This document shows, one piece after another, positions 5,040-58,358 of a stretch of 64,000 bases of DNA (position 1 is its first letter; the number at the start of each line of letters is the position of its first letter). The translations under genes were made by a program, and so were the position numbers. The DNA lies in NCBI GenBank assembly GCA_017404785.1, contig JAFRBQ010000008.1, positions 1 through 64,000 on the forward strand, read 5' to 3'. Source of the DNA: Erysipelotrichaceae bacterium (lineage in GTDB: Bacteria > Bacillota_I > Bacilli_A > Erysipelotrichales > Erysipelotrichaceae). Under the pieces are notes generated by a model. The model worked only from the letters and a program-made list of their open reading frames with translations, searched no databases and was not told where the DNA came from.

Positions 5040-5468
5040 ATGACAGAAGATAATAGAAGCAGAAAAAACATCGCACATCGTGAAGACTGGAAAAGTGAAC
5101 CCATGCCGGATAAACATGAGACTTTTGTGCTGAAGCGATCTTTCAGTGATGAAGAAATGAAGGCTCTAAGGCGTGGCAATATTCCTGAGGCTATGGAGGA
5201 TAAGTGGTTCTGGTATATGGAAGGGCTAACTCTTTTTGCCCACCGCAGCTGGACAGGATACTGCATCTATCAGATCGATTTTAAAGAGGATGATAATCAT
5301 CTCGTAACAGTCAATCGTGATCCTGAACAGTATAAATGCACCAGTATCGAAGAAGACATTGAAACCTTGAACAAACTTCTGGACTGGTGGAGTGAACTTC
5401 CTTATGATCACTATAATGAATGGCTTTCAGAAACATACGATACATTGAAGAAAGCCGACAAGAGATAG
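5040..5468 (+). CDS. Small conserved-looking cytosolic protein, function unknown
   Basis: 142 residues, charged, no signal or membrane segment. The core EDKWFWYMEGLTLFAHRSW followed by TGYCIYQIDF looks like a compact beta-rich module. I recall similar segments in uncharacterised Gram-positive proteins and as attachments to ADP-ribosylglycohydrolase-type proteins, but I cannot confirm this here. The start has no strong ribosome binding site. It lies between the M24 terminator and a gene for a double-glycine peptide. A function should not be assigned. Confidence 0.6.
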   Translation: MTEDNRSRKNIAHREDWKSEPMPDKHETFVLKRSFSDEEMKALRRGNIPEAMEDKWFWYMEGLTLFAHRSWTGYCIYQIDFKEDDNHLVTVNRDPEQYKCTSIEEDIETLNKLLDWWSELPYDHYNEWLSETYDTLKKADKR

Positions 5469-5535
5469 TACAGAAGAAAACTCCATGCTTCAGGAGTTAA
5501 TAAATTACATAAAGATATTTAAGAAGGGTAAAGAA

Positions 5536-5811
5536 ATGAACAACATTAATGAAAAAGATCTGGAACAGGTAAGTGGCGGAGAATTCAGCGAGATCGTCAA
5601 TACAGAAGATGTGCTCAGCTTTATCAAGGTCTTATCGGAGCGCCCTGGTATCGTTGAGCGTCTAAGAGCCAGTATATTGAGTGAGGAGGATGAACAGACG
5701 ATCCTGACTTATTTTCTTTCCGTAAACAGGTTCATCATGGTTGCCCGTTTAGCGCACAATAAGACGATCGTAGAGCTTATGGCGATCGCTTCTGCCAATG
5801 ACAACAGATAA
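5536..5811 (+). CDS. Small protein with double-glycine (VSGG) leader
   Basis: ATG 5536 is chosen because AAGAAGGG at 5521-5528 is well spaced; an in-frame ATG at 5485 lies in the loop of a small hairpin. The N terminus MNNINEKDLEQVSGG fits the leader of double-glycine-processed peptides (bacteriocins, pheromones), where ABC peptidase-exporters cut after GG. The remaining ~76 residues are charged and mostly helical, without Cys or Gly richness, so this is not a typical class II bacteriocin. No exporter or immunity gene is visible nearby. It may be a secreted peptide handled by a distant exporter, or a RiPP-like precursor. Confidence 0.6.
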   Translation: MNNINEKDLEQVSGGEFSEIVNTEDVLSFIKVLSERPGIVERLRASILSEEDEQTILTYFLSVNRFIMVARLAHNKTIVELMAIASANDNR

Positions 5812-5857
5812 TTAAAAGAACTTTTATATACATAACAGGAGATCATACGGTCAAAAA

Positions 5858-26774: not shown

Positions 26775-28019
26775 ATGTATCTTACGATAAGACAGCAGCC
26801 TAAACTCGGCAGATATGAATACGATACTCTGCTTGAACTGTGCAGATATGCCAAGAACCTTTACAATGAAGGACTCTATAACTGCAGACAGTATTATTTC
26901 AGTGAATCAGGGTATCTCAACTATGAGAGGAACTATCGTCTTCTGAAGGATTCTGATAACTACAGGATGCTTAACTCCAATATGGCTCAGCAGATCTTAA
27001 AGGAAGTTGACGGAGCTCTCAGAAGCTTTCTTTCGTTATTGAAACTGAAAAAGGAAGGCGAATACAATGACAGGGTAAAGATCCCCCAATATCTCAAGAA
27101 GGACAGTTACTTTGCATTGGTAATCGGATTTGTAAGGCTGAACGGCAACAGGCTGATCATTCCCATGAGCAATTCATTCAGAAAGACACATAGAAAGATC
27201 GAGATAAGGATCCCTCCGATACTCCTTGATAAGACAGTTAAAGAGATCCGCATCATTCCTAAATCCGATGGAAGGTTCTTTGAATTACAGTATACCTATG
27301 AAGCAGGTTTTCATATCAAAGAAACGTTAGATCTTAACAAAGCATTATCCATCGATGCGGGAATAAACAATCTGGCAACATGTGTTACGAATGAAGGAAA
27401 ATCATTCATATTGGATGGTAAAAGGCTTAAAAGTATCAATCAGTGGTACAACAAGAATAATTCAAGGTTACAGTCTATTAAGGATAAGCAGCATCTTTCC
27501 TTTAAGACAAGACAACAGTCATCTTTGGAAAGAAAGCGAAACAATAGGATCAATGACTATATCTCCAAATGTGTCCGGCATATTATCAATTACTGCTTAG
27601 ACAATGATATCGGCAATATCGTCATCGGCTATGATCCTGCACTGCAGAAAGAAAGTAGTTTAGGTAATAGAAACAACCAGAACTTTGTGAACATTCCTTA
27701 TGGAAGATTAAAGGACAAGTTATCTTACTTATCTCAATACTATGGCATATGTCTTATAAAACAGGAAGAATCCTATACAAGCAAAGCATCCTTCTTTGAC
27801 AAAGATGATATGCCATCATATAACGATGATCATACAAAGAATTATGTGTTCTCAGGTACAAGAATAAAAAGAGGTCTCTATCAGACCTCAAAAGGAATGT
27901 ATCTCAATGCGGATGTCAACGGTGCATTAAATATCCTAAAGAAAAGTAACGTTGTGAGCTTAACAGCTCTATACGCTAGAGGGCATGTGGACAGCCCGTT
28001 AAGAATAAGGATAGCCTGA
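26775..28019 (+). CDS. tnpB: TnpB, IS605 OrfB-type RNA-guided nuclease homologue
   Basis: 414 residues. N-terminal TnpB/OrfB fold (ELCRYAKNLYNEGLYNCRQYY), then the RuvC nuclease: Asp194 in LSIDAGINNLATCV, Asp380 in NADVNGALNIL. RuvC-II reads IVIGYDPALQKESSLGNRNN; no Glu stands at the usual place, but Glu293 in QKESS is a candidate as in TnpBs with a shifted catalytic site. The CxxC zinc-finger cysteines normally found in TSxxCSxCG are absent (YTSKASFF). In the family, TnpB cuts DNA guided by an RNA from the element's right end. A strong AGGAGG lies upstream. Activity is uncertain given these changes. Confidence 0.9.
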   Translation: MYLTIRQQPKLGRYEYDTLLELCRYAKNLYNEGLYNCRQYYFSESGYLNYERNYRLLKDSDNYRMLNSNMAQQILKEVDGALRSFLSLLKLKKEGEYNDRVKIPQYLKKDSYFALVIGFVRLNGNRLIIPMSNSFRKTHRKIEIRIPPILLDKTVKEIRIIPKSDGRFFELQYTYEAGFHIKETLDLNKALSIDAGINNLATCVTNEGKSFILDGKRLKSINQWYNKNNSRLQSIKDKQHLSFKTRQQSSLERKRNNRINDYISKCVRHIINYCLDNDIGNIVIGYDPALQKESSLGNRNNQNFVNIPYGRLKDKLSYLSQYYGICLIKQEESYTSKASFFDKDDMPSYNDDHTKNYVFSGTRIKRGLYQTSKGMYLNADVNGALNILKKSNVVSLTALYARGHVDSPLRIRIA

Positions 28020-29972: not shown

Positions 29973-30716
29973 CTATAATACCTGTGAGAGGAATTCCTTG
30001 GTTCTTTCATTCTTTGGGTTTTCAAAGAGTTCCTTTGGTGTTCCTTCTTCCATGACGATACCTTCATCAATGAACAGGACTCTATCCGCAACTTCTCTCG
30101 CGAAGCCCATTTCATGTGTGACGATGACACAGGTCATTCCTGAGTCGGTAAGCTTTCTGATGACTTCCAGTACACCCTTGACCATTTCCGGGTCCAGAGC
30201 TGATGTAGGTTCGTCAAACAGCATGACATCAGGCTCCATGGCCATGGCTCTGATGATCGCCAGACGCTGTTTCTGACCACCGGAGAGCTTGCGCGGATAT
30301 TCGTTGGCCTTGTCTTCAAGTCCGACCTGTTTAAGCAGTTCCATGGCTTTCTTCCTGGCATCTTCTAACGGCACCTTCTTTTCCAGGGTTGGTGCCAGAG
30401 TGATGTTTTCCATAACGGTTAAATGTGGGAAAACATTGAACTGCTGGAAGACCATGCCGATCTTCTGACGGTGTATATCGATATTGGTGCTCTTTGGATC
30501 GAGCTTTTCTCCTTCGAAATAGACTTCGCCGGATGTCGGTTCTTCTAACATATTGAGACATCTGAGGAATGTTGATTTGCCACCGCCTGATGGGCCGATG
30601 ATGCAGACAACTTCACCTTTATAGATCTTTTCGTTTATTCCTTTAAGGACCTGCAGATCATTGAAATTCTTTTTGAGATCGATCGTTTCAATTAATGGAG
30701 ATAGTTTATCAGTCAC
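29973..30716 (-). CDS. Polar amino-acid ABC transporter, ATPase
   Basis: 247 residues of the GlnQ/HisP type. Walker [10 protein letters not shown], signature LSGGQKQR, Walker [15 protein letters not shown] and the switch His in [10 protein letters not shown] are intact. It energises uptake through the permease encoded just upstream, whose stop it overlaps by eight bases. Nothing unusual in the chain. Confidence 0.95.
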
Positions 30717-31374
30717 TTACGCTCAACCTCCTTTCCAGCAGTTTGACTAATGATGTAAGGATCACAGTCAAAATCAGATAGATGGCAGCAATGATGAATA
30801 ATGGCTGCCATGAAAGATACTTGTTGGCCAGGATCGTTCTGGTATACATCAGTTCATAAAGCATGAAGGTACCGGCTAAAGATGTTTCCTTGATCATGGC
30901 GATATACTCATTGGCTAAAGCCGGCAGGATATTCTTGATGGCCTGCGGCAGGATGATCTTGGTCATGGTGTGGGAAGCAGACATGCCTAATGATCTGGCC
31001 GCTTCACTCTGACCGATATCGACCGATTTTATACCGCCTCTGATTATTTCGGAAACATAGGCTGATGAGTTCAGTGTCAAAGCTATCAGAACATAGACTT
31101 CCTTGTCGACATTATTGAGAAACGGAACGACCAGTGGCAAGAAGAAGTAAGCGATATACATCTGTACCAGCAGTGGTGTTCCTCTGAGGATATTGGCGTA
31201 GCCTGAACTAATTGCCGAGATGATCTTATTTTTAGAAAGGTGCGCAAAAGCTACAAACGCACCTAATATCGAACCACCTGCTACGGCAATAAAGGCATAT
31301 CTCAAAGTACCGATGGTACCTTTAAGAAAGATCGGCCAGTATTCCTTGAATACATCCGTTATACTTGGTCCCAT
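30709..31374 (-). CDS. Polar amino-acid ABC transporter, permease
   Basis: 221 residues with about five membrane helices. The His/Glu/Gln/Arg-type permease signatures are visible: [20 protein letters not shown] near the start, [15 protein letters not shown], and the EAA loop [20 protein letters not shown]. One permease gene suggests a homodimer. It follows the binding-protein gene by nine bases and overlaps the ATPase gene. Confidence 0.93.
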
Positions 31375-31383
31375 GATTTTCTC

Positions 31384-32352
31384 TTAGTTTTCTTCCAGAG
31401 CAACGATCTGGTCTTCAACATACATCTGCTGTAATGAACCGGCCTGAGCAAGGATGTGCTTGCCTACAAAGTCAGCCAGGCTCTTGTATTTATCAGCATC
31501 AGCAGCCGGAACGATCAATGTGTGGTAAGTTACACTATCATCACCGATATAGCCAACTGAGAGTTCAAAAGCTTCAGCTCTGTCTGCCTTCCAGCCAAAG
31601 CCGGAGAAGGCCATATCAACTTTACCGGTATCAACAGCTGTAAGAACGGCGTTGAAGTCCATTGTTTCGATCTTTAGTTTAACACCCAGACAGTCAGCGA
31701 CGTATTTTGCCAGCATCATCTCACTGCCATATACAGCACCATCTTCTGTGATGAATTCAGCAGCAGGGTAGTCTGGTGAAGTAGCGATAGAAAGTTCACC
31801 TTTGCTTAAGACGTTTGCCAGAACACCGCTTGCATTGCTTAAATCAAGCTCAGGCTTTTCAAGATTGGCGGTATCAAGCAGATACAGATAAGTATCATCG
31901 ACGATCGCATTGTTGTAGATCGGGGTATCACCAACGATATTCAAAGCGTCTTCATCTTCAGTTCCGGACTGGATCTTGGCGATAGCTGTCCAGAGTCTGT
32001 AATAACCATTGTTCATGGCGGTATTGATGCAGGCATTTACCGCATCCATCAGAGATGTTTCACCCTTCTTGGCAGCTGCAACGTTACCTTCAAAATCGCC
32101 ATAGATGCTTAAGTCAAAGTTGATTCCGCTCATCGCGAACTGACCATTTGACTGCGCAACGTAGTTTTCGGCAGTCGTGCCATCTAAAGCGATCGCATCA
32201 GCTTTGCCTGTAGATAAAGCCAGGATAGCCTGGTCAAGAGTCGTGACCAGTTCCAGTTCGGTTTTGCCTGGTCCTTCATCCTTCTTTCCGGAACAGCCGC
32301 ATAAACCAAACAACATAACAGCACTGATAAGTAATACTAATAATTTCTTCAT
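31384..32352 (-). CDS. Amino-acid binding lipoprotein with apparently circularly permuted domains
   Basis: 322 residues from ATG 32352, with GGAAG upstream; a longer frame to 32514 only reads through the T-box. The signal peptide ends in LFGLCGC (lipid at Cys20 likely). Canonical family order is first lobe (KGELSIATSPDYPAAEF) then second-lobe part (LDQAILALSTGKADAIALDG). Here the order is swapped: residues ~31-130 carry the normally C-terminal block, including AAAKKGETSLMDAVNACIN, and ~176-318 the normally N-terminal block, ending at AGSLQQMYVEDQ. A ~45-residue linker joins them. Both ends lie at one natural hinge point, suggesting circular permutation. The substrate is probably a polar amino acid. 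Confidence 0.85.
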   Translation of the reverse strand: MKKLLVLLISAVMLFGLCGCSGKKDEGPGKTELELVTTLDQAILALSTGKADAIALDGTTAENYVAQSNGQFAMSGINFDLSIYGDFEGNVAAAKKGETSLMDAVNACINTAMNNGYYRLWTAIAKIQSGTEDEDALNIVGDTPIYNNAIVDDTYLYLLDTANLEKPELDLSNASGVLANVLSKGELSIATSPDYPAAEFITEDGAVYGSEMMLAKYVADCLGVKLKIETMDFNAVLTAVDTGKVDMAFSGFGWKADRAEAFELSVGYIGDDSVTYHTLIVPAADADKYKSLADFVGKHILAQAGSLQQMYVEDQIVALEEN

Positions 32353-32370: not shown

Positions 32371-32600
32371 AAATAAAAACGTCCTTGTATAAATACAAGG
32401 ACGATCAATTCCGCGGTACCACCTTAATTCCCGATCAGTTACGATCGGACACTCTACAGTCTTAACGGGACAGGCGTGGCTGTTTTGTTCAGCCAGACTC
32501 CAAGGCACGTTCATCGATCGTATCCTGCTGTACTTTCACCAGCCGACAGCTCTCTAAGAAGACCGTAAAGACTACTACTCCTTTTCTTTGTGATGCTTAA
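32371..32600 (-). promoter_or_regulatory. T-box riboswitch controlling the ABC transporter operon
   Basis: On the minus strand the leader has the T-box core AAGGTGGTACCGCGGAA (32425-32409), a Stem I with AGTA and AGAGAG elements (32580-32545), and a terminator CGTCCTTGTAT/ATACAAGGACG followed by T (32403-32375). Uncharged tRNA pairing with the core would open the terminator. By pairing AAGG with CCTT at the base of Stem I, the specifier reads CGT (32509-32507), an arginine codon, which is tentative. The binding-protein gene starts 19 bases after the terminator region. Confidence 0.9.
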
Positions 32601-33667: not shown

Positions 33668-36583
33668 ATGAATAAGCTTGACCTGCTGAAATTTCTTGAT
33701 GATTACAATACCAGCGAAGACAACTTCGATTTTTATCGCATACTCGATAAGACGGATTTTGATGAGCTCATCTGCATCGATCTGAAAAACGAAAAATATC
33801 ATTATATCCATCACACCTCGAATAAGTATTATTCAAATCTCTATCAGGGCGATTTTTCCAATCTGAAGAGTTTTGCGCAAGGCGGTTATCTTCATCCGGA
33901 GGATGCGGAAAGATATCTGAGGGACTTTGATCTTTCAACGATCAAAGAAAGACTTAAGAATGCCAGCCCTAAAGGCATGCTCAAGGGGTTTTATCGGGTC
34001 AAAGGCATCGACGGTTCCTTTATTGAGACCAAGCAACTGATCATCTCCGGCGAGCTGCTGGGCAGTGATGATTCTTTGCTTTATATCTATGTCTATGACA
34101 ATGCGACAAGACAGGAAAGAGCCGATAAACAGAAACACGAGCGCAGTGAGATAACCGGTCTTTATGAAGGCCTGAGTTTCTTCAAGGAAGTCAGAAAGAA
34201 GTTCAAGGAACTAGATGAGAAATGGTGCGTCATTGATATCATGATCAGAAAGCACTCTCTTTTCTCCGACTGGTATGGTGTTGATCGCGGAAACTATCTG
34301 CTGACGATGGAAGCTGAACTGCTCAAGCAGTATGCGATCGATAATAACGGTATGGCCGGTTTCATGGGCCAGAATGAGTTCTGTCTGATCGTTCCTTATG
34401 ACAAGGAAAAGATCAAAGAGCTCTATGCAGCAGTCAAGAATCTGGTCGAGACGATCAGTTCGGTCGAGACTTTCATTCCGGTCTTTGGTGTTGCGATCTA
34501 TGACGGCACATGCGGCGATATCAGAGAATACTACAACAGGGCAGCTCTGATCTGTGAAGTCATTGATTACAGCGAAGATGATTATATAAGGGAATACGAC
34601 TACAGGATCCATGAGAAGAATCAGGAAGAGTATCAGCTGATCTATGATTTTGAACAGGCTCTTGATGCCGGTCAGATCGAATTCTTCATTCAGCCGCAGA
34701 TCAGGCTTCCGGACAGGAAGATCGTCGGTGGCGAAGCTCTGGCCCGCTGGAAGAGAAAAGGTGAATTTGTTTCACCGGCCTATTTTGTACCGATCCTGGA
34801 AAAATACAACCTGATCACCAAGCTCGACAAGAGCCTGTGGCACAGTGTGTGTTCCAATATAAGACAGATGATCGACGACGGCATCACACCGGTGCCTGTT
34901 TCGGTCAATGTCTCCCGTATCGATATCCTGACGATCGATGTTCTTTCATATCTAAACAATCTTCTGAAGGAATTTGATCTGAGTCCAAAGTATCTGCACG
35001 TAGAGATCACCGAGTCAGCCTATGCAGAGAACTCGACCTATATCTCGGAGACGATCAGAAAGATCAGAGAGAGCGGTTTTGTGGTACTGATGGATGACTT
35101 CGGTTCCGGCTATTCATCCTTGAACATGTTGAAGAACATGACAGTAGACGTAATAAAACTTGATGCACAGTTCCTCAATATCTCTGAAGATAATATCCAG
35201 AAGGGCATAAACATCATCGAATCAGTCGTCAATATGACCAAGACGCTCAGCATTCCGATCATCGTCGAAGGCGTCGAACAGCCATTGCAGGCAGAGTATC
35301 TTTCCGATCTTGGTTGCCAGTACATGCAGGGCTTCTACTTCTACAGACCGATGTCGATCGATGAATTCAAGAAACTGATCTCTGATCCGGAGAAAATCGA
35401 TCTCAATGGTTTTATCATGAAGGCCAACCAGCAGTTACATATCAGAGAATTTCTTGATGAAAACATCTATTCCGATGCGATGCTCAACAACATCATCGGT
35501 CCGGTCGCTTTCTATCTGTGGAAAGATGAAAATATCGATATCATCAGATACAACCAGCAGTTCTTTGAACTGGTCGGCATCGATTCCAAGGATTTCTCTC
35601 AGCGCATCAACAGTATTCAGGAGTTCATTCATCCTCATGATGTCGACAAGCTTTTTGAGATGCTCAAATACGCCAAGATCCATCATGTCCTGGGTTCTAA
35701 AGGCGTAGTAAGAGCCTTCAGACCGAATGGTGAGACTGTCATGATGTCGCTGCAGGTCTATCTGTTTGAAGAAAGAAGCGACGGAACGGTATTCTATGTC
35801 TCTGCTCATGATATCTCACAGCTCGATTTCGACTCCAGCAGTTTCCCTGGCGGTTATTTCCGCTGCAGTTATGATGATGGATTTGAACTGCTGTTTGTCT
35901 CACCGAACTTTGAAAAACTCACCGGCTACAATCAGTCCGAGATCGTCGAGCTTTTTGACAACAGGCTCATCAATATGATCCATCCTGATGACCGCCAGCG
36001 AGTGCTTGATGAATGTCGTGATTCCAGAGGTGGAAAGACCGCTGATATTTCGCCATACCGTCTTAAGAATAAGGACAATGATTACATCTATGTTGCGGAA
36101 CAGAACATGATCTCCAACATGTATGGAACACTGTGCTATCAGGTCGTTGCGATTGATATCAATGATTCCATGAAACTGCGCAATCAGATGGACTTACTTT
36201 CCATCTACCTTAACGATACGATCATGATGGCCCATCGTGTCAACGGTGTTCTTAAATATGAAGTCGTCATCTATGACAGCTTTATGAAGGAAAAGATGGA
36301 ACTCGATTCCAGACAGTTTGAGGAAGCTCTTAATAACGGAGAGTTCTGTAAACTTGTAAGGGGTTATGACAGCAGGATAAGTCACACCGAATATACCGAA
36401 CGCTTTTTAAGCGAGATCGTCGACAGCTACAAGAGCATCAGTGTAAAGTCTCCGGATGGTGATGATATCGATATTCTCGTACATGCCGACAAGGTCGAGA
36501 ACAACACGATGACCGAATATGTCGTCATGATGCATGTTGTAAGAAACAAGAGTCTCATCAATATCGATAGTATGAATATTTAG
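33668..36583 (+). CDS. GGDEF-like / EAL / PAS signalling protein, predicted c-di-GMP phosphodiesterase
   Basis: 971 residues, no membrane helix. Order: an N-terminal PAS-like sensor (~20-165), a degenerate GGDEF domain (~180-310; GQNEF at 234-238 replaces GGDEF), an EAL domain (~325-565) and two PAS modules (~605-835) with a further C-terminal part. The EAL domain keeps its catalytic set: EALARWK (Glu356), NVSRIDI, EITESAY, DDFGSGYSS, IKLDAQF and EGVEQ, so c-di-GMP hydrolysis is plausible and synthesis is not. C-terminal PAS modules are unusual, as PAS normally precedes EAL. AAGGAGAG precedes the ATG. c-di-GMP often controls type IV pili, encoded 15 kb away. Confidence 0.9.
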   Translation: MNKLDLLKFLDDYNTSEDNFDFYRILDKTDFDELICIDLKNEKYHYIHHTSNKYYSNLYQGDFSNLKSFAQGGYLHPEDAERYLRDFDLSTIKERLKNASPKGMLKGFYRVKGIDGSFIETKQLIISGELLGSDDSLLYIYVYDNATRQERADKQKHERSEITGLYEGLSFFKEVRKKFKELDEKWCVIDIMIRKHSLFSDWYGVDRGNYLLTMEAELLKQYAIDNNGMAGFMGQNEFCLIVPYDKEKIKELYAAVKNLVETISSVETFIPVFGVAIYDGTCGDIREYYNRAALICEVIDYSEDDYIREYDYRIHEKNQEEYQLIYDFEQALDAGQIEFFIQPQIRLPDRKIVGGEALARWKRKGEFVSPAYFVPILEKYNLITKLDKSLWHSVCSNIRQMIDDGITPVPVSVNVSRIDILTIDVLSYLNNLLKEFDLSPKYLHVEITESAYAENSTYISETIRKIRESGFVVLMDDFGSGYSSLNMLKNMTVDVIKLDAQFLNISEDNIQKGINIIESVVNMTKTLSIPIIVEGVEQPLQAEYLSDLGCQYMQGFYFYRPMSIDEFKKLISDPEKIDLNGFIMKANQQLHIREFLDENIYSDAMLNNIIGPVAFYLWKDENIDIIRYNQQFFELVGIDSKDFSQRINSIQEFIHPHDVDKLFEMLKYAKIHHVLGSKGVVRAFRPNGETVMMSLQVYLFEERSDGTVFYVSAHDISQLDFDSSSFPGGYFRCSYDDGFELLFVSPNFEKLTGYNQSEIVELFDNRLINMIHPDDRQRVLDECRDSRGGKTADISPYRLKNKDNDYIYVAEQNMISNMYGTLCYQVVAIDINDSMKLRNQMDLLSIYLNDTIMMAHRVNGVLKYEVVIYDSFMKEKMELDSRQFEEALNNGEFCKLVRGYDSRISHTEYTERFLSEIVDSYKSISVKSPDGDDIDILVHADKVENNTMTEYVVMMHVVRNKSLINIDSMNI

Positions 36584-44631: not shown

Positions 44632-44866
44632 AAATAATGATGCGCGACCTTTTTATATGATGAAATAATCAAATGAATTAAAACATTTTCGTTTGGAGTA
44701 TCGATGAGTATAAGAAATAAAATGATAGAATGATGTTAGCCTCGGTTGAACAGATCGTTTTAATCTGCTATATTAAAGCTGTTTAGAGAAACACAAATAA
44801 AAGATCATGTTATATTATATAAACTTATTTTTATCATGAAATATGATCTTGAAAGGTATTTTAAAG

Positions 44867-45577
44867 ATGAAGAATAAAAAGGGATTTACATTAGCAGAAT
44901 TACTGATTGCAGTTGCGATAATAGCTGTTTTGGTAGCTGTATCTATTCCTATCTTCTCTTCACAGCTGGAAAAAAGCCGCGAGGCTACAGATGCTGCCAA
45001 TATCCGTTCACAGTATTCCGAAATCATGGTCGAAGCATTGTCGGAAGGAAAAGATGTTAATACAGATGGCAGCAGGAAAATTCCTCTGGAACAGAAACAG
45101 GATGACTGGCAAAACGATACATTTAAAAACAGTCTGGAAGGAATAGCTACAGTAGAAGGAACACCAAAAACCGGCGGAAATGCCTGGGTTTCTTTTGAAG
45201 CTGAAAGCAGCAAAGTTACGATTCATTTTGACGGAACTGGAGGCGAACCGTCAGGCGGAGGCGGAACAGATACTGATTCCGAAACTGTCCAAACAAATGT
45301 TGAAAATCGTATAGGCACTCTTTCTTTAGAAACCGGAGATCACAAAATCATGTTAGAATCCCCTGTAACAACAACCATCAAAATATTAATTCGTCATGGC
45401 CAGGGTCATGGCCAGGGCAGTGCTAAAACGATCGAGATCCAAATAAATCCTAGTCAGACAGAATATGATTTCCATCTGGATACAAAAATAAATAATGGTG
45501 CTTATTCCGTAGTATTTACAGAAGGAATAAGTCAACAGGCTGCAAACGATATTATGAACAGCCTTCAGATATCGTAA
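44867..45577 (+). CDS. Type IV pilin-like protein with Gly/Ser spacer
   Basis: 236 residues. MKNKKGFTLAELLIAVAIIA is a class III (prepilin) signal: cleavage after Gly, Glu at +5 and a hydrophobic helix. A head domain follows, a GGEPSGGGGTD spacer near residue 125, and a second beta-rich domain whose odd GQGHGQGS stretch sits near 180. ATG 44867 with GAAAGG upstream is used; an in-frame ATG at 44843 would put eight residues before the signal. It shares its first ~45 residues closely with the pilin at 58359, so it is probably a minor or tip pilin, 4 kb away from the main pilus genes. Confidence 0.85.
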   Translation: MKNKKGFTLAELLIAVAIIAVLVAVSIPIFSSQLEKSREATDAANIRSQYSEIMVEALSEGKDVNTDGSRKIPLEQKQDDWQNDTFKNSLEGIATVEGTPKTGGNAWVSFEAESSKVTIHFDGTGGEPSGGGGTDTDSETVQTNVENRIGTLSLETGDHKIMLESPVTTTIKILIRHGQGHGQGSAKTIEIQINPSQTEYDFHLDTKINNGAYSVVFTEGISQQAANDIMNSLQIS

Positions 45578-49292: not shown

Positions 49293-49724
49293 ATGTATAT
49301 GCTTAAAGAAAATAAAGGAAGAATCTCACTGATCGAAATGGTCGCCTTGATCGTTATAATCCCGACGCTGCTGTTTTTAGGATATAAAGGCATCTACTGG
49401 TATTATGACAATATCGTTAACGGCAATGATGCACATTTTGTCAATACTGCCGAATCCATAGCCAGAGTCAATTCGCTCAACGGCATGCAATGCCCAGTTG
49501 ACAGCTGTGGCGGAACCAACTGCCGGCATTATTTCGGAGACCATTACATCGGTTATTATGATTCCATCTCCCACAAGATCGTTGGCGAAAAGATGGAAGG
49601 ATATAATCAGGCTTCAAGAATGAAGGCTGGCAAGACCTACTACTATGGCGATGAAGGTACGATGATCATTGAGATCGATTGCAAAGACGGCGTTATAGAA
49701 CTCAAGTGGGTCAAGGGAAAATGA
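49293..49724 (+). CDS. Short pseudopilin-like protein with variant signal
   Basis: 143 residues. The N terminus reads KENKGRISLIEMVALIVIIP, close to the pilin signal G-F-T-L-I-E plus hydrophobic helix, but one extra residue puts Glu at +6 instead of +5 if the cut is after Gly. A single helix is followed by a small soluble domain with three Cys (MQCPVDSCGGTNCRHYF). It overlaps pilD by ATGA, which ties it to the pilus operon. It is probably a minor pseudopilin or a membrane-anchored accessory. Confidence 0.65.
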   Translation: MYMLKENKGRISLIEMVALIVIIPTLLFLGYKGIYWYYDNIVNGNDAHFVNTAESIARVNSLNGMQCPVDSCGGTNCRHYFGDHYIGYYDSISHKIVGEKMEGYNQASRMKAGKTYYYGDEGTMIIEIDCKDGVIELKWVKGK

Positions 49725-50506
49725 ATTTGAGTGGAAATAATGTCCTGATCATTTACGTTTCCTTTTTCCTTTTTATACTGGGCACGATCTTTGGCAGCTT
49801 CATCAACTGTGTTGCCGACAGAATCGTAGCCGGAAGAGACTGGATCAGCGGCAAAAGCATCTGTGAGACCTGTAAACATGAACTGGGTCCTCTGGATCTG
49901 ATTCCTGTTTTTTCTTATATCTTCCTTAAAGGAAAGTGCCGCTATTGCGGGACAAAGCTTTCATCCAGATACATGCTTACGGAACTGTTTTTGGGCACGA
50001 GTTTTGTTTTGTACTTTCTGAATCGGAAAACGCTTGATTACATACTGATAAGAGATCTTATCCTGATCGTGATCCTTTTAGGCCTGTCACTGGTCGATCT
50101 TGTTTCCTATATCATCCCTGACGGCTTCATAATTGCCGGCATCGTCAACTGGCTTGTCAGCATCTTTTTTGTCTCTGACAAGCTCGATTATGTAAAAGGC
50201 GGATTGATCGGAGCTTTCGTCATTTCAGGATTGATCCTTTGCGTTTCATTGATCATGGATAAGGCGCTGGGCAAAGAGAGCCTTGGCGGGGGCGATGTAA
50301 AACTGCTGTTCATGGTCTGCCTCTATACCGGTGTGTTTAAAGGCTTTTTCCTGTTGTTTCTTTCGTGTGTTATCGGTCTGCTCTTTGTGCTATTATTAAA
50401 GAAAGAAAAGATTCCTTTCGGTCCTTCCATCAGCATGGCAACTTTTGTTGTGATGCTTTATGGCGATTTGGTACTGAAATGGTATCTATCATTGTTTTTA
50501 GGGTAA
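49721..50506 (+). CDS. pilD: Prepilin peptidase (PilD/GspO/ComC type)
   Basis: 261 residues, about seven helices. The N-terminal domain has FGSFINCVADRI and two CxxC pairs (Cys48/51, Cys73/76). The aspartic protease residues are Asp126 in SLVDLVSYIIPD and Asp192 in GGGDVKLL, so it should both cut and N-methylate prepilins. ATG 49721 overlaps the preceding stop. It would process the pilin at 58359, the one at 44867 and the variant at 49293. Confidence 0.93.
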   Translation: MNLSGNNVLIIYVSFFLFILGTIFGSFINCVADRIVAGRDWISGKSICETCKHELGPLDLIPVFSYIFLKGKCRYCGTKLSSRYMLTELFLGTSFVLYFLNRKTLDYILIRDLILIVILLGLSLVDLVSYIIPDGFIIAGIVNWLVSIFFVSDKLDYVKGGLIGAFVISGLILCVSLIMDKALGKESLGGGDVKLLFMVCLYTGVFKGFFLLFLSCVIGLLFVLLLKKEKIPFGPSISMATFVVMLYGDLVLKWYLSLFLG

Positions 50507-50510
50507 ACGT

Positions 50511-51491
50511 ATGGCAAATATTTTGGGGATTGAAATCGGAAATAAGACGGTAAAAGTCGTCGAAATCAAAGGTAATACTTTGAGAAATTTCGCAGCGGTC
50601 AACCTGCCTGACAACATCGTTGTAAATAACGAACTTGTTGCTTTTGAAGCGATGGGCGACCTTTTGAAGGACATTGTCAAAGAACACAGGATGAAGACCA
50701 AAAAAGCTGCGCTGGTTCTGCCTGATTCGGCAGTTTATTTAAGAAGAATGGTTTTGCCGGCCATGAGTGAAAAACAGCTGATGGTAAACATGCCTTACGA
50801 ATTCAAGGATGTTCTCTCAGAAGACAAAGACAAGTACATGTACGACTACTCCATGATCGGTTATCGCGAAGATGAAGAGGGAAAAGTAACGGAAATGGAG
50901 CTTTTAGGCGCGGTCGTAAACAAGTCTCTGCTGGAAAAGTATCAGGAAATGTTCAAAAGAGCCGGTTTAAAACTGGTGAAAGCCGGTCCAAGAGAAACAG
51001 CATTAAGCTGTCTGGTAACCATCCTTAATGAAGGAAACAAGGAAAAAGACTTTGCGATCCTTGACCTTGGCTACAAGACGACCAAAGTCGAAATCTTCAA
51101 GGATGGCGTATATGAAGTTACAAGAACCATAGAATCGGGTGCCGAAGATATCGTCAATGTCATCGCGGAAATATTCGATGTCGATCCGCATATCGCTTCA
51201 GCTTATCTGGAAACGAATAAAGACAACGTTCAGGAAAATGAAAGATGCGTCGATATCTATTCAAGTATTGCAACAGAAGTAATGCGTGTCATGAATTACT
51301 ATAATTTTGAAAATCCGGATTCAACTCTGGATACTTTATATTACTGTGGCGGTGCCAGCTATATTCCTAGATTCATAGCTGAAATTGCCGATATGGTTTC
51401 ACTGGATCTGAAACCTTTATCTTCACTCTCCGATGTTGATAAGGATGCAATCGGCAAATGTGCCCCGGCTGTCGGAGCCTGTTATGAGTAG
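50511..51491 (+). CDS. pilM: Type IV pilus assembly protein PilM
   Basis: 326 residues, actin-like fold. ILGIEIGNKTVKVVEIKG is the first phosphate-binding block and FAILDLGYKTTKVEIFKDG the second; YYCGGASYIPRF is the adenosine motif. PilM sits on the cytosolic side and links PilN to the motor ATPases. It starts four bases after pilD. Confidence 0.88.
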   Translation: MANILGIEIGNKTVKVVEIKGNTLRNFAAVNLPDNIVVNNELVAFEAMGDLLKDIVKEHRMKTKKAALVLPDSAVYLRRMVLPAMSEKQLMVNMPYEFKDVLSEDKDKYMYDYSMIGYREDEEGKVTEMELLGAVVNKSLLEKYQEMFKRAGLKLVKAGPRETALSCLVTILNEGNKEKDFAILDLGYKTTKVEIFKDGVYEVTRTIESGAEDIVNVIAEIFDVDPHIASAYLETNKDNVQENERCVDIYSSIATEVMRVMNYYNFENPDSTLDTLYYCGGASYIPRFIAEIADMVSLDLKPLSSLSDVDKDAIGKCAPAVGACYE

Positions 51492-51500
51492 AGGTGGATT

Positions 51501-52088
51501 ATGAATCTGAATAAGGAAATTTCATTCAACAAGAAGAAAAACGCTCTTCCAACCAAAACCTCTATCAATTTTATCGTTGATGAACAGTCAAAGATAAATA
51601 AGATCTCGATTATCCTGTTTGTTGTTTTCATGGTGCTGCTGGGCTTCTTTACCAAGTTTGCGATCATTGATCCATTGGCCAGAGTTGCCAAAGCCGAAAG
51701 GGAATATCGCGAAGCGGAAAGACAGCTTGATGTTTACCGCAACCAGCTGACAGATTACGCACAGATTGAAGCCGAATATAACGAAAAGATCGGTACCTTC
51801 CTGACGGACAACGAAAGATCATATCTTGATCGTACAGAGATTCTGGCTATGATCAGGGAGGATATCTTCAATTACGTCAATGTCAATAATATTGCTATTT
51901 CCGGCAATACCGTCAGAGTTTCAACGGCTACAACGACCATGGACAATATCTCGCAGATCGTCCAGGTTCTGCTCAATGACTCCAAGATCGCTTATGTCAC
52001 TCCTAAGACGACCAGAGTCGGAAATGAATCAAGTAATAATGTTACTGCCGATCTTGAGATTGGCTACAGAGGAAAGACAGGAGAATAA
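51501..52088 (+). CDS. pilN: PilN-like inner-membrane protein
   Basis: 195 residues: a cytosolic N terminus (NLNKEISFNKKKN) of the kind PilM binds, one membrane helix (~32-52), a coiled coil (EREYREAERQLDVYRNQL) and a small beta domain. Sequence identity to Gram-negative PilN is not visible, so the name rests on build and gene order pilM-N-O. GAGGTGG precedes the start. Confidence 0.7.
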   Translation: MNLNKEISFNKKKNALPTKTSINFIVDEQSKINKISIILFVVFMVLLGFFTKFAIIDPLARVAKAEREYREAERQLDVYRNQLTDYAQIEAEYNEKIGTFLTDNERSYLDRTEILAMIREDIFNYVNVNNIAISGNTVRVSTATTTMDNISQIVQVLLNDSKIAYVTPKTTRVGNESSNNVTADLEIGYRGKTGE

Positions 52089-52090
52089 TT

Positions 52091-52669
52091 ATGCTGAAAC
52101 GTGGATTGACACTCAGAGAAAAGATCCTGTTACTGGTTTGCATTTTAATTGGTTTAGGTATCTTCTATTATCAGGTTATTTATAAGTCTTTTCAGAATTC
52201 GATGGAGGCTTATGACATCAGCAATATTCAGAATCAGACTGTGATTCTGCAGGCTCAGGTTGCACGCAAGAAAACGATGCAGCAGTATCTGGTTGACCAT
52301 AAGGATGATACTTATGGCGAACTGGCCATGTACAACAATCTGTCTAAGGAAATAGGCGAACTAGCACGTATTTTTGAAGGCATTGACAACTTGTCCATCT
52401 CCTGGTCGGATCCGACACTGTTAAACAAGACAGTCAGAAGAAACGCCAACGTTTCCTTCAGTGTTGTCGGTTATCAGAAGGTCGTAGACCTAGTTAAAGC
52501 TATAAAGAACTGCAAGTATCGTTGCCTGATTTCGGATTTGAGTATTTCGACAAACAGAGACAGAGTACTGGATGATAACAGTACTGTTTCGGTCAGGATC
52601 GTCATCACCTTCTTTGAAATGGTCGATGACAACACCAACCTAGAAGGTCTGATAATTTTAAACAATTAA
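52091..52669 (+). CDS. pilO: PilO-like inner-membrane protein
   Basis: 192 residues: short basic cytosolic start, membrane helix (~11-28), coiled segment (~40-62) and a ferredoxin-like end with RIVITFFEMVDD. It lies two bases after the PilN-like gene. As in other systems, PilN and PilO should form the alignment complex. Named by position and build. Confidence 0.65.
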   Translation: MLKRGLTLREKILLLVCILIGLGIFYYQVIYKSFQNSMEAYDISNIQNQTVILQAQVARKKTMQQYLVDHKDDTYGELAMYNNLSKEIGELARIFEGIDNLSISWSDPTLLNKTVRRNANVSFSVVGYQKVVDLVKAIKNCKYRCLISDLSISTNRDRVLDDNSTVSVRIVITFFEMVDDNTNLEGLIILNN

Positions 52670-52681
52670 CAGGAGGTCGCA

Positions 52682-54358
52682 ATGAAAGCTAAAAGATTAG
52701 GTGACATACTGGTCGAAAGCGGTGTGCTGACCAATGAAGATATTGAAAAGGCCCTGGAACTTCAAAAGGGTACAAATAAGCGTTTGGGTGAGATTCTGAT
52801 TGATGAGAAATTCATCACAGAGACGCAGTTTATCGATTCTTTGAGAATGCAGCTGGGTATTGATTTTATCGATTTAGGTAAAGCTCAGATCGACCCGTCT
52901 TTAACTGCACTAGTTCCAAAGAACATTGCCAAACAATATAGAGTAGTACCGGTCAAACTGGTTGGTGACAGATTATATATCGCCATGGAAGACCCGATGA
53001 ACTTCCGTGCTGTCGAGGCTGTCAAAGAAGTTTCACATAAACGTGTTGTCGTCATGATCGCTTATCGTGAAGCGATCGAAAGAGCTCTGGCTGTTCTTTA
53101 TGAGAACGAAGGCGCCAATGCCGCCATTCAGGAGATGAAAGAGGAACAGGGGCTTGTTTCAATTGAAGAAAGAAGCGCCGAAACCGAAAATTCCAATGCT
53201 CCTACTGTCAAACTTGTCAATTCGATCCTTGAAAGAGGCATTGTCGAAAAGGCATCCGACGTTCATATCGAACCTAGAGAAAACGATATGCGCGTGCGTA
53301 TAAGAGTTGATGGACGCCTGACAGAAATACTTACTATACCAAGGAACCTGCAGGGTGCAGTTATCTCAAGACTGAAAGTCATGGCTGGCATGAATGTGAC
53401 CGAAAGAAGAGTGCCGCAGGATGGCCGTGCCGTTGTCAGATCGACAAACGGAAAAGATATCGACCTGCGTGTCAATACCTTACCGACTATATTCGGTGAG
53501 AAAGTCGTTATCCGTTATCTCTGGAGAGACTCAACTACCTTAACAAGAAAAGGCATCGGTATTACCGACAAGGATTCGGAAAAGTTTGACCGTATCATTA
53601 AGAACTCTTCCGGTCTGATCCTGATTGTCGGTCCTACCGGTTCGGGCAAGACTTCGACGCTGTATACGATAATTCAGGAGCTCAATAAACCGGATGTCAA
53701 TATGATCTCGCTAGAAGATCCAGTCGAATATCAGATCGAAGGTGTAACTCAGGTATCGATAAACGAAAAAGTCGGACTGACATTCGCCGAATGCTTAAGA
53801 GCCTGCTTAAGACAGGACCCGGATATTATCTGTGTCGGTGAGATCCGTGATGGTGAGACAGCAGAAATCGCCATGAGAGCCGCTATGACCGGTCACCTTG
53901 TTTTGTCAACGATTCATACCGAAGATGCGATCAGTGCTGTCGACAGACTGAAAGACATGGGAGTTGAGCCGTTCCTCATCTCCGGATCAATCAGAGGTGT
54001 CATCTCGCAGCGTCTGGTCAGAAAGATCTGTCCGGAATGTCGTCAGGAAGTGCAAGCTGATCCGTTAACTGCTGATCTTGTCGGCATCAAGGATGTGGGC
54101 AGTTTCCACTTCTACAAAGGCATGGGTTGCCACAAATGCTTTGATTCAGGATATCGCGGACGTACAGGTGTCTTTGAAATACTGACCCTGAATTCAGCAC
54201 TTCGCGATGCAATCAACTCAGGTGTTCCTTCAAGTGAACTGCGTAAGATGATCTATGCTTCCGACTTCACACCAATGATTGTCAATGCAAGACAGCTGAT
54301 CATGGATGGTGTCACAACAGTCGAGGAAGTACTTTCAGAAGTCGCGACGATCGAATAA
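52682..54358 (+). CDS. pilB: Type IV pilus assembly ATPase PilB
   Basis: 558 residues. The N-terminal MshEN domain (KRLGDILVESGVLTNEDIEK) is known in other PilB proteins to bind c-di-GMP. The motor has GPTGSGKTSTL (Walker A), the Asp box, DPDIICVGEIRDGETAEIAM (Walker B) and TGHLVLSTIHTEDA, followed by the zinc site CPECRQEV with CHKCFDSG. It powers pilus extension. AGGAGG upstream. A terminator follows, so pilT and pilC need their own promoter. Confidence 0.94.
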   Translation: MKAKRLGDILVESGVLTNEDIEKALELQKGTNKRLGEILIDEKFITETQFIDSLRMQLGIDFIDLGKAQIDPSLTALVPKNIAKQYRVVPVKLVGDRLYIAMEDPMNFRAVEAVKEVSHKRVVVMIAYREAIERALAVLYENEGANAAIQEMKEEQGLVSIEERSAETENSNAPTVKLVNSILERGIVEKASDVHIEPRENDMRVRIRVDGRLTEILTIPRNLQGAVISRLKVMAGMNVTERRVPQDGRAVVRSTNGKDIDLRVNTLPTIFGEKVVIRYLWRDSTTLTRKGIGITDKDSEKFDRIIKNSSGLILIVGPTGSGKTSTLYTIIQELNKPDVNMISLEDPVEYQIEGVTQVSINEKVGLTFAECLRACLRQDPDIICVGEIRDGETAEIAMRAAMTGHLVLSTIHTEDAISAVDRLKDMGVEPFLISGSIRGVISQRLVRKICPECRQEVQADPLTADLVGIKDVGSFHFYKGMGCHKCFDSGYRGRTGVFEILTLNSALRDAINSGVPSSELRKMIYASDFTPMIVNARQLIMDGVTTVEEVLSEVATIE

Positions 54359-54380
54359 CAATAGAAACGACCATTTACTA

Positions 54381-54409
54381 AAAGCCACAGACTTAACTGT
54401 GGCTTTTTA
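54381..54409 (+). terminator. Terminator after pilB
   Basis: AAAGCCACAG (54381-54390) pairs perfectly with CTGTGGCTTT (54397-54406), followed by TTAA. Confidence 0.85.
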
Positions 54410-54428
54410 ACAGCAGAAGATCTTTCTT

Positions 54429-55667
54429 TTATATCGCACTTACAGGCAAAGCTATAACATTTTCACTGATACTGTAAGGTTCTTTTGTTGTACAGATGAT
54501 CGCGTTCGTTCCTTTTTTATATCTTGTATCTTTCAGTCTTTCAAAACACTTTACATTTGAACTGCTGTAGTTTGCTCCGGATTTGCATTCTATCAGTGTC
54601 AGTTTTCCGTCTCTCAATATTACAAGATCGATCTCATTCTGGCTGTTGTCTCTGTAGTATCCCAATGGCTGTTCATGACCGAAATTTATGTATGATTTAC
54701 GTATCTCGTTTGCGATCCATGTTTCCACAAACCGTCCCTTCAAGAAACTCGTGTCAAGCGTTTTGCTGTCGCGTATTCCTGCAAGATAACAGGCAAATCC
54801 GGTATCGAAGAAATAGAGTTTTGGCCTTTTGGTGATCTGTTTTACTATCGATCCATCGTTGTATGGCCTGGCGATCCAGATTATGCCGGTCTTTTCCAGA
54901 GCTGAGATCCATTGTTTGATGGTCGGAGCTTTAACTCCAGTATTTTTCGCGTAATTATCATAAACAAGTTCTTCTCCGGTGTTCGACGCCAGAAGGGTAA
55001 GAAAGTTGTTGAATTGCGTTTCATTTCTGACTTCCAGCACTTCCGGAAGATCTTTACTCATGTATGTTTCGATATATGATGAAAAGAACTGTTCTCTTGA
55101 TGTATTGGGATCATCATATAACTGAGGCATATACCCTTTGACGATATATTCAAGAAGTTCATCTTCGCTTAACTGATAATCTTTTGCTCTGTTCCTGGAT
55201 TCGAGCTTATCGACTGCAAAAGGACTTTCTTTAAGTCCCAATGCTTCTCTCATGGATAATGGATTCATTTTCAGGATATTGCACCTTCCAGCCATAGATT
55301 CCTTTGCGTTTTCCAGCAATGCCTTTGAGCTTGAGCCGGAAAGAATAAACAGACCATTTGCTGTTTTACTTCCTTTTTCAAGCTTAATTCTGTTGACGGT
55401 CTCCTCTATCTCTTCAAAGAGCTCCTTGGCTCTTTGACATTCATCGATTATTACAGGAAGCTTCAATCTTTCCAGAAAAGACTTTGGGTCATTGATGGCA
55501 TCCATTCTGTCTGCTCTGCTGTCAAGAGTAACATACGAATATCCTTTCTTGATCATGCTGTTATATAGAAGAGTTGATTTACCGACCTGTCGTGGACCGC
55601 TTACTATCGTTACAGGAAAATGTCTTGTCGATTCTTCTATCTGATCAAGTATTGTTCTGCTTAACAT
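54429..55667 (-). CDS. AAA ATPase with DUF4143 / nuclease-like C terminus
   Basis: 412 residues. Walker A GPRQVGKSTLL, Walker B LPVIIDECQR and sensor FILSGSSS give an AAA domain; DUF4143 follows (~200-300) and a PD-(D/E)XK-like end with NEIDLVI and LIECKSG. These orphan ATPases are frequent and often mobile; their role is unclear. It stands on the opposite strand between pilB and pilT, splitting the pilus operon, and is flanked by AT-rich DNA, so it was probably inserted. A truncated relative lies at 43583-43912. Confidence 0.85.
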   Translation of the reverse strand: MLSRTILDQIEESTRHFPVTIVSGPRQVGKSTLLYNSMIKKGYSYVTLDSRADRMDAINDPKSFLERLKLPVIIDECQRAKELFEEIEETVNRIKLEKGSKTANGLFILSGSSSKALLENAKESMAGRCNILKMNPLSMREALGLKESPFAVDKLESRNRAKDYQLSEDELLEYIVKGYMPQLYDDPNTSREQFFSSYIETYMSKDLPEVLEVRNETQFNNFLTLLASNTGEELVYDNYAKNTGVKAPTIKQWISALEKTGIIWIARPYNDGSIVKQITKRPKLYFFDTGFACYLAGIRDSKTLDTSFLKGRFVETWIANEIRKSYINFGHEQPLGYYRDNSQNEIDLVILRDGKLTLIECKSGANYSSSNVKCFERLKDTRYKKGTNAIICTTKEPYSISENVIALPVSAI

Positions 55668-55908
55668 GATTTATTTCCTCCTGATATTATTATAACAGAT
55701 AAAAATAAAATAGAACTTTAGAAAATCCAAATTACAATTATATTTTTATATAGTAAAAAAATATTCAATTTTATAGGCTCTAATAAAAATGGATCTAATA
55801 ATGTGCTTGGTATTCACAAAGAATAAATAGTCTTTAGCAGTTATTATGACGATATGCTTAATAAATGTTAGAATTTAAGATGTAAGAAATAGACGGGAAA
55901 AAGAATTT

Positions 55909-57000
55909 ATGAAGACAATTGAAGAGATCGTAAAAACAGGCGAAGAAAACAAGGCAAGTGATATTCACTTTTCTTGCGGTTCCCCTGTAAAGTATCGTAT
56001 TGACGGAGAAGTTCAAAGCCTTGACGATGAAGTGCTTTCTTTTGATGACTGTGAGAATCTGGGCAAAAGACTGGCTCAGGAACACTTTGATGAAATAAAA
56101 GAGACCGGAGAACTGGATCTGGCCGAAACGATAGCCGGATCACGTGTACGTATTAACCTGTATAGAACAAAAGGTTCCATTTCCGGTGCTCTGCGAATCC
56201 TGCATGACCATATTCCAGAACTGAGCACTTTAGGATTACCGCCGGTCGTGTCGGAATTCCCTACATATCAGAAAGGCATCATCCTGGTAACAGGTGAGAC
56301 CGGTTCAGGTAAATCAACGACCATGGCTTCGATCCTGAATGAGATAAATCATACCAGAAGAGAACATATCATCACGCTGGAAGATCCGATCGAATATATC
56401 TATAAAGATGACAAATGTCTGATCTCTCAAAGAGAAGTCGGCAAGGATACCGAATCATATGCGATGGGTCTAAGAGCTATCTTGAGAGAAGACCCGGATG
56501 TCATCCTGATCGGTGAAATGAGAGATGACGCAACTATTTCTACTGCGCTGACAGCTGCCGAAACAGGCCATCTGGTTTTTGCGACTCTGCATACCAATTC
56601 TGCTGTAGATTCAGTAGACAGAATCGTCGGAACTTTCCCGGCTGAAAAGCAGGGTCAGATCAGAAATCAGCTGGCTTCTACCTTAAAGGCCGTTCTTTCA
56701 CAACAATTGCTGGTCAGAAAAGGCGGAAAGGGCCGTGCGGCAGCGTGCGAATGCATGATTGTAACCCCGGCCATCAGAAATCAGATCAGAGAAGGCAATA
56801 CTGCGCAGATGCAGTCTTCGCTTCTTTCTTCCGCCAATATCGGCGCTATTACGATGGATAATTGTCTGATCAACATGGTCAGAAACGGTATTATCGAATC
56901 CGACACAGCTGTTGAAGCGGCAAACAATCAGGAATATGTCAAACAGAATGTCGGCATCGCAAGAAGCACATCATTTAATGCCGGAGGAAGGAAGATATGA
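55909..57000 (+). CDS. pilT: Type IV pilus retraction ATPase PilT
   Basis: 363 residues. TGETGSGKSTTM (Walker A), EDPDVILIGEMRDDATISTA (Walker B and the PilT-type AIRNLIRE-like end region NQIREGNTAQM) and GHLVFATLHTNSA are present. The N-terminal PAS-like domain (ASDIHFSCGSPVKYRIDGEV) is complete. A second, retraction-type motor implies twitching or DNA-uptake-like dynamics. The upstream 240 bases are AT-rich and must hold its promoter. It overlaps pilC by ATGA. Confidence 0.92.
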   Translation: MKTIEEIVKTGEENKASDIHFSCGSPVKYRIDGEVQSLDDEVLSFDDCENLGKRLAQEHFDEIKETGELDLAETIAGSRVRINLYRTKGSISGALRILHDHIPELSTLGLPPVVSEFPTYQKGIILVTGETGSGKSTTMASILNEINHTRREHIITLEDPIEYIYKDDKCLISQREVGKDTESYAMGLRAILREDPDVILIGEMRDDATISTALTAAETGHLVFATLHTNSAVDSVDRIVGTFPAEKQGQIRNQLASTLKAVLSQQLLVRKGGKGRAAACECMIVTPAIRNQIREGNTAQMQSSLLSSANIGAITMDNCLINMVRNGIIESDTAVEAANNQEYVKQNVGIARSTSFNAGGRKI

Positions 57001-58208
57001 TCACATATAAATATTCGGCTGTTTCCAAAGACGGTGCCAAAGTTAGTGGAGTAATCAAAGCTGTTGATGAATATCAGGCAATCGACAGAATAAGAGCTCA
57101 GTATCCGATCGTTGTCAAGATTGAAGAAGTAAAGGATACTGTGATGAACAGGATCCTCAATTTTGAGATCGGCAAGAAATTTGATGCTAAAGCTCTCTCG
57201 GTGATGTGCTCACAATTCGGTATTGTCTTGGAAAGCGGCATGCCGATCGACGAGTGTCTGAAAATGATCGCGGCCCAGACCAAGGACAAGAAGATTAAGA
57301 AGATGCTGGAGCTTTCGGCAGAAGATGTATCACAGGGCACACCGATCGCTACGGCATTTGAAAAGAACTATCCTGATCTTCCGGTAACCTTCCTTGAAAC
57401 GATAAGAGCCGGTGAGATATCCGGTACACTGGACAAATCCTTCTCATCTTTGGCGGATTTCTATGAAAGAAGCTATACCCTTGAACAGAAAGTAAGATCA
57501 GCCATGAGCTATCCGCTGTTCGTTCTGGGCGTAGCGGTAGTCGTACTGATCGTCGTCATGGCTTTTGTCATGCCGACCTTCACTTCAATGTTTGATGAAC
57601 TGGGAGGTGAACTTCCGGGAATAACCAAGATGTTGGTCTCCATGACCAATTTCTTCCAGAAGTGGTGGTTGCTTATAACCAGCATAATAATCCTTGTCAT
57701 TATTGCAATCATTCTCTATAAGCGTTCGGATGTTGGAAGAATGAAGTGGGCTCAGATGATGCTCAAACTGCCGATACTGGGCAATCTGAATATCCTTCAG
57801 GCATCAACGGAATTTGCCTCAACGATGACGACACTATTAAGAGCCGGTCTGACGGTAGGTGACGCACTTAATGTCACCAGCAAGGTTATTTCAAATTATG
57901 CGATAGCCACTGAAGTCAAATCCATGGAAGAAAAGATCAAGACCGGTCAGGAACTCGGTAATGTCATTCGTGCAAGTGAATACTTCCCTCAGGTCCTTAA
58001 GGAAATGACGGCAGTAGGTGAAAAAACCGGTGAACTGGAAGCCACACTAGAGACCGTCTCCACCTACTATAATAACGAGTACAATTACGCAGTAGGTCAG
58101 GCAATTTCCAAACTGGAACCGGCAATGCTGATCTTCCTGGCACTGTTTGCCGGATTTATCGTCATCGCTCTGTATCTGCCGATGTTCACGATGTACAATC
58201 TTATGTAA
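56997..58208 (+). CDS. pilC: Type IV pilus platform protein PilC
   Basis: 403 residues with the two GspF domains (~65-190 and ~270-395) and three membrane helices (~170, ~220, ~375). FCSQFGIVLESGMPIDECL-type and FASTMTTLLRAGLTVGDALN stretches are the domain signatures. It is the inner-membrane platform the motors turn or push against. Coupled to pilT by overlapping stop and start. Confidence 0.92.
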   Translation: MITYKYSAVSKDGAKVSGVIKAVDEYQAIDRIRAQYPIVVKIEEVKDTVMNRILNFEIGKKFDAKALSVMCSQFGIVLESGMPIDECLKMIAAQTKDKKIKKMLELSAEDVSQGTPIATAFEKNYPDLPVTFLETIRAGEISGTLDKSFSSLADFYERSYTLEQKVRSAMSYPLFVLGVAVVVLIVVMAFVMPTFTSMFDELGGELPGITKMLVSMTNFFQKWWLLITSIIILVIIAIILYKRSDVGRMKWAQMMLKLPILGNLNILQASTEFASTMTTLLRAGLTVGDALNVTSKVISNYAIATEVKSMEEKIKTGQELGNVIRASEYFPQVLKEMTAVGEKTGELEATLETVSTYYNNEYNYAVGQAISKLEPAMLIFLALFAGFIVIALYLPMFTMYNLM

Positions 58209-58234
58209 TTTTCATAAAAAATAACAGTCAAATA

Positions 58235-58290
58235 AACGTTCTGTAAGCGATTTCATTTTTTATCAAAAAATATTGCAGGACGTTTTTATT
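58235..58290 (+). terminator. Possible terminator after pilC
   Basis: AACGTTCTG (58235-58243) can pair with CAGGACGTT (58276-58284, one G-T), followed by TTTATT. The 32-base interior, itself able to pair, makes it less certain. Confidence 0.45.
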
Positions 58291-58301: not shown

Positions 58302-58358
58302 TTATTTAGCAAGTTTTTAGTGAATTGCTGAATTTTTTTATAAGAAAGGAATTAAAAA

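Follow-up and report, generated by a model that had tools for sequence, protein, structure and literature searches.

The 322-residue protein encoded on the minus strand at positions 31384–32352 of the window (i.e. of the whole 64,000-nucleotide stretch of DNA analysed here) is a true circular permutation of an SBP_bac_3 binding protein (SBP), and very probably the lipoprotein that binds arginine for an ABC importer under T-box control. Naturally permuted ABC binding proteins have been described before, and the present case is of value because its two block orders are so close to each other. No report of a natural permutation in polar amino-acid SBPs was found in the open-access literature, and the present case would seem, with somewhat more confidence than doubt, to be the first to be described in these proteins, a recent one (both orders being orthologous in one genus and in one operon), in which lobe 2 has taken over the membrane tether from lobe 1, and in a lineage with an independent second permutation, cut at the hinge and fused to a permease.

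Most natural circular permutations are ancient and seen by structure comparison only, and how they start and persist is hard to test. Here, the unswapped version survives in the gene cluster of close relatives, giving a near before-and-after view of a rare rearrangement; with close orthologues, one operon, one arginine T-box and a readable cut and linker, the effects of the two orders on stability, binding, docking and anchoring become comparable. The pair also offers a natural template for the design of permuted binding-protein sensors.

Operon and reversed order of the two blocks

The open reading frame is intact, begins with MKKLL and carries an LCGC lipobox with Cys20; its assignment rests on profile and PDB matches, and over 30 species have it conserved along its whole length. 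It is followed, on the same strand, by the genes of a BPD_transp_1 permease of the HEQRo_perm_3TM subfamily (30709–31374) and of a GlnQ/TcyN-like ABC ATPase, of the type that serves polar amino acids (29973–30716). A T-box leader lies upstream (32394–32597, minus strand; RF00230, 115.4 bits, E 8.4e-25), the specifier of which is CGU (Arg), at 32507–32509; CGC or CGU is found at the corresponding place in every readable leader of the relatives, with either block order, so that the system bears the mark of arginine-responsive control. Specifiers were called from Rfam alignments and a position-bound scan, their register being the one usual for T-box leaders in general. The layout of arginine T-box, binding protein, permease and ATPase is common to both orders, and the permease orthologue is found after permuted and unpermuted SBPs alike.

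The Pfam profile PF00497 (SBP_bac_3) matches residues 187–271 with 72.9 bits against a cut-off of 26.4. In a phmmer search of the PDB, residues 181–316 align with 4h5f_A 8–142 (i-E 6.7e-21) and residues 30–127 with 4h5f_A 144–235 (i-E 1.1e-3), i.e. in swapped order. With an HMM built from 26 unpermuted orthologues, the native protein is likewise matched in two exchanged pieces, model positions 207–311 falling at residues 30–134 (domain E 7.7e-43) and 36–207 at residues 148–318 (domain E 2.1e-90), while the protein rejoined end to start gives one match over model positions 3–311 (434 bits, E 4.8e-134); in a control with the cut at an arbitrary site the match remains in two pieces. Thus, all segments of the two-lobed SBP_bac_3 domain are present, as shown by the end-to-end match of the rejoined protein, but the canonical order of N-terminal part of lobe 1, lobe 2 and C-terminal part of lobe 1 is not, and the protein is a permuted member of the family. 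The swapped order goes well past anything that chance would produce, and over 30 species share it. The first-pass annotation had read the two blocks of a polar amino-acid binding protein as reversed, had expected that joining the end back to the start would restore a canonical protein, and had proposed comparing native and rejoined orders on a family profile: the reading is borne out on each of these points, also by the existence of real unpermuted orthologues in the same operon.

The anatomy of the protein can be followed from its start. The signal peptide and lipobox (residues 1–20, 32293–32352, minus strand, as for all segments below) are homologous to those of unpermuted orthologues; the lipidated Cys20 is invariant and comparison of permuted L054 (LMKITAAAAMAVSLAACSSG) with unpermuted L063 (MMKITAAAAMALSLTACSSG) identifies the signal peptide as the ancestral one (L numbers designate loci). 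The normally C-terminal half comes next (residues 30–134, 31951–32265; HMM 207–311, 4h5f 144–235) and comprises what remains of lobe 2 together with the C-terminal portion of lobe 1. Residues 135–147 (31912–31950) have no counterpart in unpermuted orthologues and form the core of a new junction, which amounts to about 20 residues once its ragged edges are counted. The former N-terminal extension, the motif TYLYLLDTANLEKPELDLSNASG found at the N-terminus of unpermuted orthologues, now forms a strap between the blocks (residues 148–176, 31825–31911), and the normally N-terminal half follows (residues 177–318, 31399–31824; HMM 36–207 with the strap included, 4h5f 8–142, TmArgBP 20–156), with the N-terminal part of lobe 1 and the strand and helix that open lobe 2. 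Most of the linker between the blocks (135–175, roughly 40 residues) corresponds to the extension that unpermuted proteins have at their N-terminus, and the run leads from the old C-tail (EAKAAAGIED, in permuted proteins AIAKIQSGTED) through the approximately 20 new residues to the old extension TYAYLLDTTDLEKPELDLSNADG. When the linker was searched against the unpermuted loci for the source of the new junction, weak matches only were obtained (best E 0.09), among them a collinear one with the stretch that follows the lipobox in unpermuted L039 (GTEDDTQEEISEDTW; E 0.17, not significant).

The site of the cut can be read to the residue. Unpermuted L060 has ...MYVTDQILTLEGGD|KTELEKVATLDQ at this point (in its wider context, ...MYVTDQILTLEGGDKTELEKVATLDQ...), and the permuted form has ...GKTELELVTTLDQ at its start and MYVEDQILALEGE followed by the stop codon at its end, with no residue lost; across the permuted proteins, ...KTELELVTTLDQ is found after the lipobox and MYVEDQILALEGE or a similar sequence at the C-terminal end. 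The cut falls in the loop that leads from the first lobe-2 helix (196–208 in the unpermuted model) to the strand after it (215–219). The earlier placement of the end of the protein at the inter-lobe hinge was, therefore, mistaken, as was the reading of AGSLQQMYVEDQ as that hinge, this segment being the strand and helix with which lobe 2 begins. In the sister unpermuted clade the loop at the cut site exceeds in length that of most other unpermuted relatives, so that the loop of this lineage was probably tolerant already when the cut was made.

Selection, predicted structure and function

Median dN/dS is 0.13 in the N-half, 0.14 in the C-half and 0.24 in the linker, so that all three parts of the permuted gene evolve under purifying selection. 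The Ser/Arg/Ser-Thr/Asp positions of SBP_bac_3 ligand contact are kept in permuted sequences: S250, G251, R258, S306 and D57, the counterparts of the residues with which LAO-type proteins bind the amino-acid backbone, are invariant in 31 of 31.

The AF2 model of the permuted protein has a pLDDT of 84, with a pTM of only 0.75. Its helices and strands are those of the unpermuted model at constant offsets, of 183 for the C-half and of 111 in the opposite direction for the N-half. In a sequential fold comparison the unpermuted model aligns with 4h5f end to end (Z 26.6, 235 residues) and the permuted one over its second block only (Z 9–10, about 140 residues), as is expected of a permutation when alignments are sequential; the N-half of the permuted model matches TmArgBP 20–156 with Z 10.4. 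In native order the permuted model also gives a loose alignment with OpuAC (213 residues, rmsd 5.0, Z 9.7). Sequence and fold comparisons both lead to SBP_bac_3/Type II proteins and not to the Type I (Cluster B) sugar-binding fold.

The protein is, then, probably an ordinary two-lobed arginine receptor of the T-box-controlled importer. The permuted chain would still close into a two-lobed Venus flytrap, the old termini being joined by the strap made of the former N-terminal extension and the roughly 20 new residues; the receptor would bind arginine and hand it to the downstream permease and ATPase. The new termini would lie in a surface loop of lobe 2 and, therefore, the lipid anchor would hold lobe 2 and no longer lobe 1.

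Distribution and origin of the permuted form

In the window's genus the permuted form is present in 14 of 36 genomes (74–95% identity) and the unpermuted orthologue, in the same operon, in three of the 36. At the level of the family (273 genomes), three genera contain the permuted form, and many species contain unpermuted orthologues accompanied by that same permease and ATPase. A scan of 84,980 species returned 50 loci, 39 permuted, two of which are truncated at a contig end, and 11 unpermuted; the permuted form is carried by more than 30 species of ruminant-gut Erysipelotrichaceae, the relatives being mostly named Erysipelotrichaceae bacterium and Solobacterium sp., with many from ruminant gut.

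The permuted proteins are monophyletic in the tree of the N-half (support 97), in that of the C-half (85) and in the joint tree (82/93), and their clade is sister to one unpermuted clade: the permuted form has a single origin. The best unpermuted match of the window protein is L063/G055, with 71% identity over the N-half (residues 152–322) and 62% over the C-half (residues 29–133). The permease and ATPase tree is incongruent with that of the SBP, which indicates that the SBP gene has probably moved between operons, an exchange that blurs the history.

The likeliest origin is a tandem duplication followed by fusion and trimming, the way in which circular permutants are classically held to arise (PMC3320104). 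The binding-protein gene would have been duplicated in tandem, the end of copy 1 fused in frame to the N-terminal extension of copy 2, the extension and N-half of copy 1 deleted behind its signal peptide, and a new stop placed ahead of the C-half of copy 2. This course is favoured by a cut without residue loss, by the retention of the signal peptide, by the single origin recovered with both halves and by the tandem SBPs of sister operons; as for permutants made by duplication, there is an unpermuted homologue whose residues are the same but rotated. The proposal of the first-pass annotation, a duplication with loss of both outer halves, consequently stands as the best explanation while falling short of proof: fused two-copy or half-trimmed intermediates were found neither in the 273 genomes of the family nor in the 50 loci from 84,980 species, and its suggestion to look for two-copy intermediates in relatives yielded adjacent, unfused copies only (L075, L077). 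Since the partner copies in L075, L076 and L077 fall outside the immediate sister clade of the permuted form and fused intermediates were not found, the duplication route is one that we infer.

That every genome concerned is metagenome-assembled could point to an assembly or binning artefact, or else to a decaying pseudogene; however, over 30 species drawn from the MAG sets of independent projects (RUG, RGIG, UBA and others) have the same junctions, operon and T-box are conserved, and selection acts on halves and linker alike, so that both notions were rejected on recurrence across MAG projects and on dN/dS, and their probability is negligible. Halves of two different paralogues might have been fused, rather than one gene permuted, as several SBP paralogues are present in these genomes and permuted and unpermuted copies stand side by side in L076 and L077 (in the latter the two genes adjoin). 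Yet each half is closest to one and the same unpermuted clade (L063 being the best row for both, at 71% for the N-half and 68% for the C-half), which argues against such a fusion, and each half taken alone yields one permuted clade; this very improbable course was also rejected.

A gene split into separate N-half and C-half genes, later rejoined in reverse, is another recognised way to a circular permutation (PMC3320104), but free-standing half genes were seen in no retrieved operon, the old signal peptide has stayed on the C-half and the former extension on the N-half, and the adjacent whole SBP copies of L075 and L077 suit duplication better, making fission and refusion improbable. As to the product, the length of the linker could allow a domain-swapped dimer, in which each binding site is built from halves of two molecules and the chain does not close on itself, and a designed half of the ribose-binding protein does dimerise via segment swapping (PMC9815098); against this, the strap is predicted to be ordered (pLDDT 87–96) and the monomer model is confident, and such a dimer is quite improbable.

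Two arrangements in relatives may be recorded. L075 has two tandem unpermuted SBP genes before one permease and ATPase (3474–5817, plus strand), an actual instance of binding-protein duplication within this operon. In L076 (genome G065; 4846–5053 and 3808–4818, both minus strand), a solitary permuted SBP with its own arginine T-box lies beside a complete unpermuted operon, and may be an orphan binding protein that shares the permease of its neighbour.

Known permutations and a second event in the same genome

The closest comparison is with the unpermuted orthologues themselves (for example, L063/L143 of Erysipelotrichaceae SIG229 and L037 of the window's genus), which share the T-box/SBP/permease/ATPase operon, the residues and the N-terminal extension, but have the N-half before the C-half, the lipid anchor on lobe 1 and no junction of about 20 residues. 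The best solved relatives by sequence and fold, the Streptococcus pneumoniae amino-acid SBP 4h5f and Thermotoga maritima ArgBP, are SBP_bac_3 proteins with, unlike the window protein, the canonical block order.

Natural permutation is documented for TpMglB-2 (Tp0684), a 'Cluster Bc' glucose-binding lipoprotein that is similarly lipid-anchored and serves an ABC system; it belongs, however, to the Type I sugar-binding family, has the first strands of the N-lobe moved to the end, and represents an old divergence, with a poorly similar permuted part and no close unpermuted sister reported (PMC4990184). An effect of shifting the anchor from lobe 1 to lobe 2 is what we infer for the window protein; a comparable idea on anchor relocation was put forward for TpMglB-2 by those who studied it (PMC4990184). 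A circular-permutation relation also links glycine betaine-binding OpuAC with ProX and the molybdate-binding proteins, but it is structural and ancient, visible by structure only (less than 24% identity) and in another ligand family (PMC2395249).

The source assembly is a MAG of 1.31 Mb, 76% complete. In the same genome, four SBP-permease fusions have their SBP_bac_3 blocks likewise reversed: L015 (2521–4155, minus strand), L016 (3012–4529, minus), L017 (4478–6004, plus) and L018 (3168–5480, plus). Their order is lobe 2 with the C-terminal part of lobe 1, the N-terminal part of lobe 1 and then the permease, in proteins of 500–545 residues, or of 770 residues in a form with two units; L018 contains two permuted SBP-permease units. 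In L017, residues 28–151 align with AncQR 106–231 and residues 169–271 with AncQR 9–111, with the permease at 291–486. In contrast to the window protein, with which they share about 30% identity, the fusions are cut at the hinge and have the N-terminal part of lobe 1 fused directly to the permease, and their permutation is an event independent of that of the lipoprotein. At the threshold used, they occur in 17 of 268 genomes of the family and in two of its genera only.

Elsewhere in the window, a type IV pilus-like cluster (49679–58799, plus strand) comprises a prepilin peptidase, PilM, T2SSE ATPases, T2SSF and an N_methyl pilin, with a further N_methyl pilin-like open reading frame outside it at 44843–45577. 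An IS605 OrfB/TnpB-like protein (OrfB_IS605 and Cas12f1-like_TNB) is encoded at 26775–28019 (plus strand). The product of 33668–36583 (plus strand), 971 residues long, combines an EAL domain with PAS domains and is probably a phosphodiesterase acting on cyclic di-GMP.
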